Virus record (IMG/VR): IMGVR_UViG_3300025127_000069
Coordinates: 1-46,844 of that record
DNA length: 46,844 nt
Direction: 5' to 3' (one strand)
Origin: a virus
Below the pieces are notes generated by a model, which made no database searches, was not told where the DNA came from, and was given only the letters and a program-made list of their open reading frames with translations. Below are positions 128 to 45,299 of the stretch, piece after piece. Numbering within the stretch: position 1 is the stretch's first letter; every line of letters starts with the position of its first letter. A program made the position numbers and the translations under genes.

Positions 128-1130
128 AGCTACAGAAAGAGCTGCTTCTGCACAAAATGTAGCTAATCAACAGCTAGGCAGAGAAGCTATGAAAGTTTCT
201 AGTCAAATAGAAATGGAAAGAGAAAGATCAGCACAAGCATATAACCAAGCAATGAGACAATATGATACAAATTTAAAAGGTGCATTCATAGGGGGTGTTG
301 CAAATGTAGCCACAATGGGCATACAAAATCAAGCAGCATTGAGCTCTGCGAGATCAATTTTAGGTAATGATCAAGTACAATCTTTTTTAGATCAAAATTA
401 TTCACCACAAGATATACAAAAAGTATCTCAATATCATTTAAATAAAAATGAAAAGTTTTATAGTAGCATGGATCAAGGTTTGGCAAAAACTGTAATAAAT
501 GATCCATATGCAGATATATTTTTGACAGGGATGGCACCTGGAGATAATGAATTAATTAAAACAAATTCTGCAGAAAATGTTGATTTTAATAATTTATCAA
601 ACTTAACATCAGAAGTAACAGATTTGAATGAAAATATACAAAATATAACAACACAAAACCCTTCCTCAACATCCTCAGAAGTCGCACAACAAGGTAGTGA
701 AGCAGTCTCGCCAACTGCTTCATTATCAATGGAAACAATAACTGAACAAAAAGAAGACAAATTAGATGAAAAAACACAAAATACACAATCATCTAAAAAA
801 GAATATGTAACAGGCTTTAAAACAGAGGGTTTTGATGAAGCTAAGGCTAAAGTAGAAAAATCTATAGATTTAAATCCAAAGGAAAGATTAGAATTTAAGA
901 AACAATGGCAAGGGTTATCTAAAGATGCAAGAAGTGTTTTTGAAAGTGTAGATTACAGTGAGACAAATACTGGAGTTGGTTTGACAGGAAAGCCTGAAGT
1001 TTGGGATGAGGTTTTAAAATCTTACATAAAAATAAAAGGTGACCCTACAGGAGATTTAAATAAAGTCAATGAATTTTCTGCATGGGCAAGAGAAAATTAT
1101 CAAATAATAAAAGAAGGTATGGGAGGATAA
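3..1130 (+). CDS. Ejection-module protein A1 (internal virion protein, gp14-like position), 5'-truncated
   Basis: The frame is open from base 3, well upstream of the first ATG at 189. Those first 62 codons match residues of the complete homologue at 43413-45299, so the true start is missing, not internal. The N-terminal part is Ala/Gln-rich and helical, of the type seen in podovirus internal virion proteins (QQQQQIGYN, GLAGSGIEAQQRL, SQIEMERERSAQAYNQAM). After about residue 110 of the fragment it is unrelated to the homologue, except for a short island around TSTSSEVAQQ and SEAVSPTAS. The C-terminal part is charged and helical. It lies 1 base before A2, with GGAGG just ahead of the A2 start. 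A role in DNA ejection is inferred from composition and from the giant transglycosylase-like protein two genes downstream. Confidence 0.75.
   Translation, partial: AQSRQQQQQIGYNVQRSGLAGSGIEAQQRLTASQGTQEALAGATERAASAQNVANQQLGREAMKVSSQIEMERERSAQAYNQAMRQYDTNLKGAFIGGVANVATMGIQNQAALSSARSILGNDQVQSFLDQNYSPQDIQKVSQYHLNKNEKFYSSMDQGLAKTVINDPYADIFLTGMAPGDNELIKTNSAENVDFNNLSNLTSEVTDLNENIQNITTQNPSSTSSEVAQQGSEAVSPTASLSMETITEQKEDKLDEKTQNTQSSKKEYVTGFKTEGFDEAKAKVEKSIDLNPKERLEFKKQWQGLSKDARSVFESVDYSETNTGVGLTGKPEVWDEVLKSYIKIKGDPTGDLNKVNEFSAWARENYQIIKEGMGG
698..722. repeat. Conserved 9-bp-stem hairpin inside A1 (copy 1)
   Basis: TGAAGCAGT, the loop CTCGCCA, then ACTGCTTCA form a perfect 9-bp inverted repeat. The same 25 bases occur unchanged at 44249-44273 in the B1 allele although flanking protein sequence has diverged. 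It is more G/C-rich than its surroundings. No U-tract follows, so it is not a standard terminator. Confidence 0.8.
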
Positions 1131-9921: not shown

Positions 9922-10857
9922 TTATAATAGGTTGTTCAACCTTTCAAGTACTTCTTTTTTTGTAGGCTCAGAAAAATCATTAGATATAGTTTTTTTACCT
10001 GTTATTTTTAGTAGCATATCTTCTGCTTGTTGACCATTGCCATTCATTTTTATTTCTGACATCAAGCCATCAGCTGTGTCTTTAAATGAATAATCTATGT
10101 CCTGGTCCAGCACTACAGGATGTATTATCTCTTCAACTTCTTGATCTATTATTTTATCTGAATTTCCAACTGCACTAGACAATATTAAACTTTCTTTAGT
10201 TGTAGACTTAGGTAACTGTTTGTCTATTAATTGTCTTAACACAGTTTTTTTAGCCATTGCATCAAAGTTACTCTTCCATGGACTTGAGCTACTATTATAT
10301 CCTTTAGCAAACTTTTTCATATGATCTACAATTTCTTGTTTTGACATCAAGCACAATGTGTCACCACCATTGTTAAGTTTAGCATATGCATAGTATGCTA
10401 TAGGCTCTCCTCTTTCCCCTGTGACTAATGGTTTATGATAAAAGTTTGGATTGTATCCTTTAACATACTCATAATCATCATGTTCACATATTACATCTGC
10501 ATCAATCATTTTTATCATACCACTATTCCAAGCTAATTTAAGCATACCCCTATACTCAATTAAAAATTGCACATCTTTACCATATGGCACAAGAGCAGCT
10601 TCCATCAATGGACTGTTTGGTTCTAACCCAAACCTTGCAGATTCCATCATAGCTTTAATTAGTGACTTAGGATTGCATTGTTGTAACTTGTTATTACTTT
10701 GTACTGCTATTAAACAAGCATTAACAAACTGTTGTGTATTGCTGTTCATTGGTAACACAGATTGAAAAGCATCAGACCTTGACTTAATCATACCATAAAT
10801 ATCATTGGTTTTTTGTGTCAAAGCTTTTGTTTTCTTTTTTGACTCTTTTATATCCAT
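9922..10857 (-). CDS. recT: RecT-family single-strand annealing protein (311 aa)
   Basis: The RecT core is recognisable at about residues 45-220: QQFVNACLIAVQ, then CNPKSLIKAMMESARFGLEPN, then YGKDVQFLIEYRGMLKLAW, the hallmark pattern of the family. A variable acidic C-terminus follows. RecT anneals complementary single strands and works with a 5'-3' exonuclease, which is encoded by the overlapping upstream YqaJ gene. The two form the classic exonuclease-annealase pair for recombination-dependent replication and end repair. Confidence 0.95.
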   Translation of the reverse strand: MDIKESKKKTKALTQKTNDIYGMIKSRSDAFQSVLPMNSNTQQFVNACLIAVQSNNKLQQCNPKSLIKAMMESARFGLEPNSPLMEAALVPYGKDVQFLIEYRGMLKLAWNSGMIKMIDADVICEHDDYEYVKGYNPNFYHKPLVTGERGEPIAYYAYAKLNNGGDTLCLMSKQEIVDHMKKFAKGYNSSSSPWKSNFDAMAKKTVLRQLIDKQLPKSTTKESLILSSAVGNSDKIIDQEVEEIIHPVVLDQDIDYSFKDTADGLMSEIKMNGNGQQAEDMLLKITGKKTISNDFSEPTKKEVLERLNNLL

Positions 10858-12441: not shown

Positions 12442-13023
12442 TTATCCTTCTTCATCAGGCACCACCATTGCTACTTGATGTTTATGTGCTACATTTGATG
12501 TGCTTTGACCTGTAAACAATCTTACTTTGTTCATCATCAAATTCATCAATGTTATAAAATTCTTCATCTCACTAGGCTTATCTATCATCTTGACATAATC
12601 TGCCTGATTTAATGCTTGTAACATCCTGATAAGTTCAGTCATCAATGCACTTGATACATATTTCATACCCTCTGAAACTAATGCTGATTGTTGTGCCTGT
12701 AACTCATCTTTAATATCCCACCAGTTTTTTAATGTGTTATGATGTATACCTAACATCCTGGATATAGTTCTATATCTTGGTATTAAATCACCCTCAGCAT
12801 TTTCTTTTTGCATAGTTTCCATAAACATTAATGCAAAATGTTTTTCATCGATCCTGTAGTGACCTTTTTTATGTTCAAACAATGGTTCAAAATCCAGTGC
12901 ATTTTCATCAGGAAGTTTAACACCTAAAGATTTAGCTTGTATCTCTGCCTGTTCCTTATCCTGTGTAACACCATTTAATTTCTGTATTTGCTTATCTAAT
13001 AGTGCTTTTTGGTCTTTATTCAT
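12442..13023 (-). CDS. Helix-turn-helix protein (193 aa)
   Basis: A helix-turn-helix is visible at about residues 82-107 (RYRTISRMLGIHHNTLKNWW). A charged helical N-terminus and a helical C-terminal part (ALMTELIRMLQALNQADYV) flank it. The layout resembles phage small-terminase-like or regulator proteins that use a transposase-type HTH. It lies directly after the integrase gene with an ATGA overlap, far from TerL. It could regulate the early block or integration; a small-terminase role cannot be excluded. Confidence 0.6.
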   Translation of the reverse strand: MNKDQKALLDKQIQKLNGVTQDKEQAEIQAKSLGVKLPDENALDFEPLFEHKKGHYRIDEKHFALMFMETMQKENAEGDLIPRYRTISRMLGIHHNTLKNWWDIKDELQAQQSALVSEGMKYVSSALMTELIRMLQALNQADYVKMIDKPSEMKNFITLMNLMMNKVRLFTGQSTSNVAHKHQVAMVVPDEEG

Positions 13024-13583
13024 AAAGAATAATCCTCATATGCTGTGTCAATCATATCCTGATCAATACCAATGTATCTCAATGTCACAGCTGGGTTTTG
13101 ATGGTTTAACATTTTCATAACCAATGATAAGTTTTTAGTAGATTGGTATATATAGTATGCTAAAGTTTTTCTCATGGAATGTGTGCCAAAGTTTTGTATA
13201 CCTACATTATCTGCACTTCTCTTTAAAACTCTCCATGCATTAGTTCTATCTAAATGTTTATCTTTATTTTTTAAACTATGAAATAAATAATCATCACCTG
13301 ATATGTTATTCTTGTTAACATACTTAATTATTTCTTGCTTGATTAATTTGTTTAATTTAATTTTCTTTGACTTTTTAGTTTTTTGTTCATGTAATTGCAA
13401 ATAGTTTTTTATCTTACCATTGCTATCAAATAAATCTGAATATTTTAATGTTATGATGTCTGATATGCGAAGTATAGTATTAATTCCCATCCTGAACAAC
13501 AATGCATCTCGATCATTTCTTTTTTCTAAATTCTTGACCATTTTACTAATCAATGTTTTACTCTTTATAGGTTCAACAACCAT
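13020..13583 (-). CDS. int-like: Catalytic-core-only tyrosine recombinase (187 aa)
   Basis: All catalytic residues are present in order: Arg39 (LRISD), Lys68 (EQKTKKSKK), His135 and Arg138 (THSMRKT), His161 (LNHQNPAVTLRYIG) and nucleophile Tyr170. At 187 aa it is about half the size of a lambda-type integrase and lacks both the N-terminal arm-binding domain and the core-binding SAM-like domain. The start is well supported by AGGAGTTAAAATG. Such core-only recombinases are known in some phages and plasmids. It could act in integration or in dimer resolution. No recognisable repressor accompanies it. Confidence 0.9.
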   Translation of the reverse strand: MVVEPIKSKTLISKMVKNLEKRNDRDALLFRMGINTILRISDIITLKYSDLFDSNGKIKNYLQLHEQKTKKSKKIKLNKLIKQEIIKYVNKNNISGDDYLFHSLKNKDKHLDRTNAWRVLKRSADNVGIQNFGTHSMRKTLAYYIYQSTKNLSLVMKMLNHQNPAVTLRYIGIDQDMIDTAYEDYSL

Positions 13584-13600
13584 TTTAACTCCTAATAATA

Positions 13601-13663
13601 AGTGGGGCAGGAAAAAGAATGAATAAGGAATGAGCCTGGTTAGGACTCAAAACCTACCCCACT
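13601..13663. repeat. Inverted repeat upstream of integrase, candidate attachment site
   Basis: AGTGGGG and CCCCACT pair perfectly at the ends, followed inward by AGG/CCT after one mismatch. The outer stem encloses 49 bases. Inside it, TAGG-ACTCAAAA-CCTA abuts the 3' arm and resembles a degenerate T-arm. The element is 18 bases upstream of the integrase start in non-coding DNA and much more G/C-rich than its surroundings. A phage attachment site next to int, or an int leader structure, are the likeliest roles. Confidence 0.45.
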
Positions 13664-16410: not shown

Positions 16411-16508
16411 TCTTTTTTTCTCCATTCTTTTTTATTATAGTAACCAACTATTGATTAAATATATTAATAACTCTTATTTATATGCAAATTATTTATTATA
16501 TTTTTTTG

Positions 16509-16554
16509 TAGTGTGTCAGGGTTCGAACCTGAAAAAAACCTAAATTTCACACTA
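16509..16554 (-). ncRNA. tRNA-like minihelix (acceptor stem plus T-arm, no D or anticodon arm)
   Basis: Minus strand, 46 nt: TAGTGTG, a 15-nt connector (AAATTTAGGTTTTTT), TCAGG-TTCGAAC-CCTGA, then CACACTA. The outer 7-bp stem is perfect. The inner 5-bp stem with the 7-nt loop TTCGAAC is a canonical tRNA T-arm, joined to the 3' acceptor strand with no gap exactly as in tRNA. The D-arm, anticodon arm and variable loop are absent. It lies in a 153-base non-coding gap between leftward genes. It could be a tRNA remnant serving as attP, an RNA processing signal or an RNA in its own right. Confidence 0.55.
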
Positions 16555-16563
16555 TTTTGAGCT

Positions 16564-16803
16564 TTATTTATTAAAAGTTTTAATATATAATTTCTCTATA
16601 ACTTTTAAATGTTTTTGTAATGCTTTTTTACTATTAAAAGTAGTTTTTTTTGGTTTTTCTCCAAAACTAATTCCTATTGTATCAATTACTAAATATTCAT
16701 AAATATTATTATTCTTATCAATATTTAATTTAAATATTATATTTGTGTTTGTAATATCATTACAATAATTTAAATATTTTATTATTTTATTTATTAATTT
16801 CAT
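16564..16803 (-). CDS. Hypothetical small protein (79 aa)
   Basis: Not recognised. It is Asn/Lys/Ile-rich, with IIFKLNIDKNNNIYEYLVID suggesting beta strands and a C-terminal helix ALQKHLKVIEKLYIKTFNK. GAGGAA precedes the ATG at good spacing, and the gene follows a membrane micropeptide by 2 bases. Low-complexity A/T-rich codon use is like its neighbours. Confidence 0.6.
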   Translation of the reverse strand: MKLINKIIKYLNYCNDITNTNIIFKLNIDKNNNIYEYLVIDTIGISFGEKPKKTTFNSKKALQKHLKVIEKLYIKTFNK

Positions 16804-43412: not shown

Positions 43413-45299
43413 ATGGCTTGGCAACTATTAGCAGCAGCAATACCATCAGTAGCAAAGATAGCTACTACTGCAATAAATAAACCAAAACAATCAGATTATA
43501 AACCACAAACTAAATACATGGAAAAGTATTTAGCAAATCTTAGAGGTCAACAATCTAGCAATGCAGTATTTGAACAAGCTATGAGACCTGCACTTAGAAC
43601 TATAGGTGCACAATCTAGACAACAACAACAGCAAATAGGTTACAATGTACAAAGATCAGGTTTAGCAGGTTCAGGTATTGAAGCACAACAAAGGCTAACA
43701 GCTAGTCAAGGAACACAAGAAGCATTAGCAGGTGCTACAGAAAGAGCTGCTTCTGCACAAAATGTAGCTAATCAACAAATTGGCAGAGAAGCTATGAAAG
43801 TTTCTAGTCAAATAGAAATGGAAAGAGAAAGATCAGCACAAGCATATAACCAAGCAATGAGACAATATGATGCAAATTTAAAAGGTGCATTTATAGAGGG
43901 TGTTGCAAATGTAGCAACAGCAGGTGCAGGTATGGCAATGACTAATGCAGCTAATGAAAGAAAGCTTGAAGCTGCACGAAGTGTAATAGGTGATCAGGCA
44001 GATACATATTTGGAAGCTGGATTTGAAATAGAAGATATATATAATGCTTCTGTAAAAGATATGAGAAAAAATGAAATAATGTTTGGTGATAAAGATAACC
44101 AATTTATATTAGAACAATACATAAATGAAATAGGTGGAGTAGGAGACCTTGGATATAATAATATAGAAAATATACCTGATGTAGATCCTATACTAGAAGA
44201 TTTATCAAATCAACCTACCTCAACATCCTCCGAAATCGCACAAGGTAATGAAGCAGTCTCGCCAACTGCTTCAGATGCCTACAGGTTTGATCCAATGACA
44301 GGGCAAAGAGTAAGTAAAGAGTATTATGACAATATAATAATGGGGCAAGATAGACCTGATCCTTTTGTTAAATATGGAGTAAGACCAGATAGACCAGGAA
44401 TAGAATTTGCAGAAGATGATACACCACCTAATGCAATGGATAATCCTTTGTATGTTGAAGATTTAGAAATGCCACAAGCTATACCAGAGTTTGACAATAC
44501 AGGTCCTGAGTTGCCACCTACAGCTGAAGAAAGAGCATCAGAAGCACAATTGATTCAAAGAGATGCAGGTTTAGGAGATACAGAAGTTGTAAAAAATACA
44601 GCACCAAAAAGACCTAAAACTGAATTGGCATCCGATGATGAATTTGAAGATAAAAAGATTACTGTTACAGATACAGGTTTTATATCAGCTCCTTCTGATG
44701 CAGAGTTTATAGTTTCTGGAATGTCATTTCCAAAATCTCTATATGGTGATGTATTTAAAAATATACCAAAAAGAGATGATCTTACAGGTAAATCTATGGA
44801 AGGTACAAAGCCAGATCCACAAAATATTGTAACTAATCAAAAGCCACCTGTAAAAGGGACTGCTGGTACAGGCACATCTTTAAATAAAAAGAAACCAATG
44901 GAAACTGTTGCACAATTTATAAAAAGACATGAAAAACAAGAATTGCAAGTATTGGCTAAAACATTAAAAAGTAAATCAGCTGCAGCTAAAGCTTTAAATA
45001 ATGCAAATAAAAAATCTAAAACATTATTTGAATCTGAAGTTTCTAGTGCATTAAAACAAAAAGCTATGGATCAAATAGAAATGACTGATGCTAATGTTAG
45101 AGCATTTTTTAGAGGTACACCTAAGCAGATAGCAGATAGAATGAAAAGAAGTGACATGTTTAGAAAAGGTGTTGAAAGATTATATGGTATATCTATAGAC
45201 CCTAATACAGGCAAATTAATAGAATTAGACAAATTAGAATCTAGAAAAGGTAAACCAGGGTTTTTAGATACAGTAACAGAAGGAATGGGGGAATATTAA
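43413..45299 (+). CDS. Ejection-module protein B1 (628 aa), complete homologue of A1
   Basis: MAWQLLAAAIPSVAKIATTA is a hydrophobic N-terminus followed by Gln-rich helices (LRGQQSSNAVFEQAM, QSRQQQQQIGYNVQRS). Residues about 65-165 are nearly identical to the start of A1, then the sequences diverge. They come together again only at TSTSSEIAQGNEAVSPTAS. The remaining 350 residues are acidic and disordered, then basic helical (MDQIEMTDANVRAFFRGTPK), and differ from A1 in both length and content. Internal virion protein of the gp14-like place. GGAG precedes the ATG. Confidence 0.75.
   Translation: MAWQLLAAAIPSVAKIATTAINKPKQSDYKPQTKYMEKYLANLRGQQSSNAVFEQAMRPALRTIGAQSRQQQQQIGYNVQRSGLAGSGIEAQQRLTASQGTQEALAGATERAASAQNVANQQIGREAMKVSSQIEMERERSAQAYNQAMRQYDANLKGAFIEGVANVATAGAGMAMTNAANERKLEAARSVIGDQADTYLEAGFEIEDIYNASVKDMRKNEIMFGDKDNQFILEQYINEIGGVGDLGYNNIENIPDVDPILEDLSNQPTSTSSEIAQGNEAVSPTASDAYRFDPMTGQRVSKEYYDNIIMGQDRPDPFVKYGVRPDRPGIEFAEDDTPPNAMDNPLYVEDLEMPQAIPEFDNTGPELPPTAEERASEAQLIQRDAGLGDTEVVKNTAPKRPKTELASDDEFEDKKITVTDTGFISAPSDAEFIVSGMSFPKSLYGDVFKNIPKRDDLTGKSMEGTKPDPQNIVTNQKPPVKGTAGTGTSLNKKKPMETVAQFIKRHEKQELQVLAKTLKSKSAAAKALNNANKKSKTLFESEVSSALKQKAMDQIEMTDANVRAFFRGTPKQIADRMKRSDMFRKGVERLYGISIDPNTGKLIELDKLESRKGKPGFLDTVTEGMGEY
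43606..43732. repeat. 127-bp exact direct repeat, copy 2 (internal)
   Basis: Identical to bases 1-127; see copy 1. The exact match ends at 43732, after which the downstream sequence becomes the alternative B allele. No similarity is asserted upstream, because copy 1 begins at the contig end. Confidence 0.95.
44249..44273. repeat. Conserved 9-bp-stem hairpin inside B1 (copy 2)
   Basis: The same 25 bases as at 698-722 (arms TGAAGCAGT and ACTGCTTCA, loop CTCGCCA). The bases just upstream (CCTCAACATCCTC) are also shared between alleles, while sequences further out differ. Confidence 0.8.

Follow-up and report, generated by a model that had tools for sequence, protein, structure and literature searches.

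A tRNA-like minihelix in a marine phage and a probably related intergenic RNA family with features of RNase P substrates

The window analysed here (the whole stretch of 46,844 bases) is the IMG/VR virus record IMGVR_UViG_3300025127_000069 from a marine phage, and its gene content includes a P22-like portal, RecT, YqaJ, and a tyrosine recombinase. At positions 16509..16554 of the minus strand lies a tRNA-like minihelix, composed of an acceptor stem, a 15-nt insert, and a T-arm, which is located 9 nt past the stop codon of a 79-aa ORF of unknown function (16564..16803, minus strand) and 83 nt ahead of the start of a gene that the annotation assigns to the GP88 family (PF17338; 15493..16425, minus strand). 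Both flanking ORFs are on the minus strand, in agreement with the first-pass annotation, which had placed the element between genes and on their coding strand. The tyrosine recombinase gene (phrog_216; 13020..13583, minus strand), which served as a synteny anchor, lies 2.9 kb downstream in the same orientation; the terminase gene starts 3.2 kb from the element on the opposite strand. The window holds a single copy of the element.

Two further features of the window are recorded as separate observations. A second intergenic structure (13601-13663, minus strand) is located directly upstream of the recombinase gene and pairs AGTGGGGTAGG with CCTGCCCCACT over 11 bp around approximately 40 nt that include TAGGTTTTGAGTCCTA; it is possibly regulatory, and the order of its parts is unlike that of the minihelix family described below. 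Moreover, the ORFs at 189-1130 and 43413-45299 (plus strand) contain a near-identical stretch (MKVSSQIEMERERSAQAYNQAMRQYD...), which amounts to a partial duplication near both contig ends.

Read along the minus strand from 16554 to 16509, the element is TAGTGTG-AAATTTAGGTTTTTT-TCAGG-TTCGAAC-CCTGA-CACACTA. Specifically, the 5' strand of the acceptor stem (TAGTGTG, 16548..16554) is followed by the insert (16533..16547), by the T-arm (16516..16532, with the 5' stem strand at 16532-16528, the loop at 16527-16521, and the 3' stem strand at 16520-16516), by the 3' strand of the acceptor stem (CACACTA, 16509..16515), and by a 3' tail, CAAA (16505..16508), all on the minus strand. The 7 + 5 pairs of the stack are all Watson-Crick, the T-loop is canonical and closed by G53-C61, and RNA folding returns exactly the expected structure, the acceptor stem stacked on the T-arm, at -11.1 kcal/mol. 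Sequence and fold thus uphold the initial description of a 7-bp outer stem stacked without a gap on a T-arm with a TTCGAAC loop, as well as the replacement of the D and anticodon arms by 15 nt, an insert that is too short to fold into both arms. The insert has no G residues other than the GG at 16540-16539, which is comparable to that of the family inserts, and no clear mini D-stem is visible in its sequence or fold. An alternative reading gives the stack 11 bp and an additional T:A pair, with a tail A-C-A-A that starts at A(16509): in this reading the base at +1 is A, C74 is present, and the tail fits the N-C-(T/A/G)-A of the family, whereas in the 12-bp reading the base at +1 is U and the tail is C-A-A-A.

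The folding energy of the element is unremarkable, with a z-score of -1.29 and 25 of 200 shuffled sequences folding equally well. Its architecture is rare: a T-loop on a 12-bp stack, in which G-U pairs were allowed, with an insert of 20 nt or less, occurred four times in 400 dinucleotide-shuffled windows, that is 0.01 per window against the one observed. ARAGORN called no tRNA gene anywhere in the window, and Rfam, searched with gathering and relaxed thresholds, gave no relevant match at the element. Likewise, a search for intrinsic terminators (a G+C-rich stem followed by a T run on the coding strand) returned no site between 16300 and 16950, the tail after the element reading CAAAAAAA.

A terminase search collected 77 loci from relatives of the window phage, and a scan located T-loop elements in the intergenic gaps of many of them. 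The element-bearing relatives, which share the terminase, the integrase, and the RecT/YqaJ genes with the window phage, carry from one to seven intergenic structures with the architecture of the window element, located upstream of the integrase and on its strand. In the relatives anchored on the integrase, all 17 matches to the family model are on the integrase strand, and the window copy falls in the same zone, upstream of the integrase, and on the same strand. The phage G009 has six minihelices without any insert, all with a 12-bp stack, the loop TTCGATT, and the tail (A/G)CTA; all the cells of their alignment are paired (100%, against 61.6% in shuffles), and 11 of the 12 pairs are changed on both sides among the copies. 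A seventh element of this phage has a 30-nt insert in which D- and anticodon-like arms can be drawn by eye. In other relatives the insert measures 10-12 nt, TATGGTAC and CATGGTGC being examples, and in the phage G010 a layout identical to that of the window copy (7 bp, 15-nt insert, 5 bp, T-loop) is found beside canonical copies.

The same loci hold some features of separate interest. ARAGORN, run on the window and on 60 loci, made a single call, a tRNA-Asp of 85 nt in the locus L009 (1529-1613, plus strand) that ends in G-C-T-A instead of CCA and is possibly a full-length relative of the tRNA mimics. In L064, a peptide deformylase gene (605-1051, minus strand) is found among the element-bearing genes, not far from a gene for an ArdC-like anti-restriction protein; in L029, L044, and L049, relatives of the latter gene are likewise neighbours of elements.

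The elements of the relatives were condensed into a DNA pattern (ATGGTNC, 1-3 nt, GGGNNNGTTCGANTC); viral contigs contained 91 stretches that fit it, and bacterial and archaeal genomes a further 83. A covariance model, R1, was built from 34 elements. In the R1 alignment, 97.9% of the cells are paired and 13 of the 14 pairs show double changes, including those of a mini D-stem, with the caveat that gathering the elements by pattern and pairing rules inflates the pairing counts of both the outer helix and the inner one. The scan did not demand the mini D-stem, and its outer pair, free in the DNA pattern, is CG in 13 elements, UA in 12, and AU in 7. When the partners are slid out of register, pairing falls to 43-58%. 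Moreover, none of 522 control loops with the letters of the T-loop reversed obeys the pairing rule, against well over 100 of 516 true loops. R1 returned 96 matches at E < 0.01 in viral loci, together with strong matches in genome contigs, namely in MAGs named Aliivibrio, Bacteroidales, and Lachnospiraceae and in the genome of Azospirillum lipoferum; pairing is 96.8% in an alignment of 112 matches, which is fitted to the model. The elements of the relatives and those of many unrelated phages make up one RNA family. No Rfam family matched the family loci at the thresholds used, no description of such a family was found in an open-access library of papers, and the minihelix family is apparently undescribed.

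The hallmarks of the family are a stack of 12-13 bp, a T-loop UUCRANN closed by a G-C pair, and an insert that is usually a mini D-arm with GG in its loop. The stack length, when not forced, is 12-13 bp in 88 of 109 elements, and a 14th pair is formed in only 5% of them. GG is present in all 63 inserts of 8-16 nt, a count partly built in by the search pattern; 86 of 101 elements have a purine at +1; and the tail is usually N-C-(not C), with C74 in 69 of 75 elements and C75 in none of the 75. By a crude ORF caller, 73 of 101 elements lie outside ORFs, and several of those scored inside an ORF are probably, by inspection, cases in which an ATG or GTG within the element extends the next ORF. Of the 73 outside, 67 share their strand with the gene upstream, and the median distances for the 73 are 5.5 nt past the upstream stop and 38 nt ahead of the next start. 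A further hairpin directly follows the element in 46% of cases, against 4% of shuffled tails, and a genome may hold up to 12 copies. In the Lachnospiraceae MAG contig L230, 11 T-loop elements were observed within 7 kb; most of them share the T-arm GCAAGG-TTCGATT-CCTTGC on differing outer stems, and their tails are without C74.

The family extends to cultured phages: besides marine contigs whose portal is P22-like, its carriers include a Gordonia phage grown in culture and a crAss-like phage. In the Gordonia phage Cafasso, a search of the whole record (MZ322021.1) gave ten elements with E-values of about 4e-4 or lower, none of which is annotated. Ten elements were likewise obtained from a 16-kb stretch of this phage once weaker matches were counted, and they are found in annotated gaps; most start -1 to 11 nt past the annotated stop and end 33-49 nt ahead of the next annotated start, with the exceptions of one that starts 37 nt past the stop and one that ends 116 nt ahead of the next start. 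The copies at 10366 and 10659 have one long gap in common. In the crAss-like phage cr53_1 (NC_055889.1), one element lies directly upstream of the DNA primase gene (E = 4e-7). Other candidates were set aside: the matches in Cellulophaga phi40:1 and in a Rhizobium phage are weak and partial, those of phi40:1 being mostly in or near annotated tRNA genes, and the match in Enterococcus EH-TP1 comprises the T-arm only.

A function for the family is suggested by the requirements of RNase P. Bacterial RNase P RNA cuts hairpins made of an acceptor stem, a T-stem, and a T-loop, the distance from the T-loop to the 5' end being a conserved 12 bp in its substrates; further contacts are made with the +1/72 pair and with residues of the 3' end (the RCCA interaction), and the natural substrates of the enzyme include phage RNAs (PMC11143913). 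Because the family keeps most of these features, namely the 12-bp ruler, the purine at +1, and C74, we propose that the minihelices are transcribed and cut by host RNase P, and perhaps by RNase Z too, dividing the polycistronic phage mRNA, a proposal that we regard as evenly poised. According to this model, the element would be transcribed as an intercistronic tRNA mimic, an acceptor stem and T-arm minihelix without an anticodon arm, placed straight after a stop codon and ahead of the ribosome-binding site of the next gene. Host RNase P would read the T-loop and the stack of approximately 12 bp and cut at the 5' end; in the window copy, the predicted cut separates 16555 from 16554, and an 11-bp stack would shift it inward by one base. 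The cut would give the upstream gene a 3' end, and the downstream mRNA would begin with a structure formed by the minihelix and often by a second hairpin. RNase Z may cut past the discriminator base; a CC discourages this enzyme, and the absence of C75 would, more speculatively, avoid it. The benefit to the phage would be separate or stabilised mRNAs in its operons. The first-pass annotation had suggested that the transcript might be cut at a minimal RNase P substrate: at the level of the family, covariation, the 12-13 bp, the purine at +1, C74, and the placement all strongly favour a transcribed minihelix that is a substrate of the RNase P type, from which we infer cleavage. The compensating changes it had called for are likewise seen in the family, in 13 of 14 pairs, while no ortholog of the window copy itself was found.

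The same placement, between a stop codon and the next ribosome-binding site, and the frequent second hairpin would also suit elements that are real but never cut, and that would either protect the mRNA by giving it a structured 5' or 3' end or, as mimics of the tRNA elbow, control translation or decay by binding a host protein such as a tRNA-modifying enzyme. This reading gains from C75 never being C in 75 elements, so that no mature CCA end is encoded, but the 12-13 bp, the purine at +1, and C74 are closer to the contacts of RNase P (PMC11143913) than a general hairpin needs, and we consider it possible yet doubtful. Turning to the window copy, its E-values are not significant with either of the models R1 (0.42) and R2 (0.096, the best match in the window), and it differs from the family in its longer, AT-rich insert, in the U at +1 of the 12-bp reading, and in a C74 that appears only at 11 bp. 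These scores, together with the fold z-score of -1.29, would suit the decayed remnant of a tRNA, or a fold arisen by chance, with no relationship to the family of the neighbouring phages, as would its occurrence as a single copy that is absent from the relatives L002, L005, and L007. Indeed, no ortholog was found among the relatives: there is no element upstream of GP88 in L002 (GP88 92% identical) and in L005 (terminase 99%, GP88 68%), and no element at all in L007/G001 (terminase 98%), while blastn of the element or of its region against phage records returned no relatives of the window copy. Against a remnant or chance fold, only 0.01 such structures are expected per shuffled window, the copy lies in the zone and on the strand of the elements of the relatives, and all 12 pairs are Watson-Crick, whereas a non-functional remnant would decay; we therefore hold this origin to be unlikely. 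Rather, the window copy is probably a divergent member of the family, an assignment made on architecture, position, and rarity and not on a significant model score: its T-loop fits UUCRANN, has the G-C closing pair, and caps a stack of about 12 bp, and it is intergenic, on the coding strand, 9 nt past a stop.

The first-pass annotation had also raised the possibility of a reduced attP copy of the 3' end of a host tRNA. The 3' ends of tRNA genes commonly serve as integration sites, and the window encodes a potential user, the tyrosine recombinase (13020-13583), at a distance of 2.9 kb. However, a search for a host tRNA 3' end retrieved no exact 22-nt match from bacterial and archaeal genome contigs, among which the host may be absent, or from viral contigs; a single relative may have as many as seven copies, whose stems differ; the recombinase is present whether or not a relative has elements; and the matching 5' strand of the acceptor would be superfluous for an attP core. 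Moreover, the homologs of the recombinase in the phage records listed are mid-genome and annotated as site-specific recombinases or integrases. An attP origin is thus poorly supported and, in our judgement, very improbable.

Under the preferred reading, a divergent member of a family of RNase P-type minihelices, the broader implication is that many phages punctuate their operons with anticodon-less tRNA mimics cut by host tRNA-processing enzymes, a generalisation in which our confidence is middling. If it is correct, it would reveal a widespread RNA family missed by standard annotation, with Rfam and ARAGORN silent and the Gordonia phage record blank, and it would offer a testable explanation for the cutting of long operon transcripts by some phages, Cafasso being a cultured phage at hand for experiments. 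The family would also represent a natural variation on the needs of RNase P and RNase Z, in stack length, in the GG of the elbow, in the base at +1, in C74, and in the avoided C75.

Some of these traits recur in known systems. T4-type promoter stem-loops and the start-associated sequences of mycobacteriophages are repeats that likewise occupy the gaps between small early genes; neither is known to have a T-loop or tRNA geometry. The tRNA-like domain of tmRNA, like the family, has an acceptor stem and a T-arm with a D-loop mimic and lacks the anticodon arm, but the family elements are short and present in many copies, with no tag reading frame and no CCA end. M3 RNA, C4 antisense RNA, and T4 gene 32 mRNA are phage transcripts recognised by host RNase P (PMC11143913), but they are single RNAs, whereas the minihelix family is multi-copy. 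The model substrates of RNase P share with the family a stack of approximately 12 bp that ends in a T-loop (PMC11143913), a design matched exactly by the six G009 copies, but they are synthetic, whereas the family is natural, repeated, intergenic, and mostly equipped with a mini D-arm insert; if cut, it would be a natural use, with up to 12 copies per genome, of the minimal substrate known from test-tube work.

Lastly, mitochondrial tRNA punctuation likewise relies on tRNA-like units located between genes on the coding strand, and in both cases these units would divide the transcript. The difference is that the phage family, whose members lack an anticodon arm and, in all 75 elements tested, C75, yields no tRNA; if the proposed cutting takes place, it would be a viral counterpart of mitochondrial punctuation in which no tRNA is produced.
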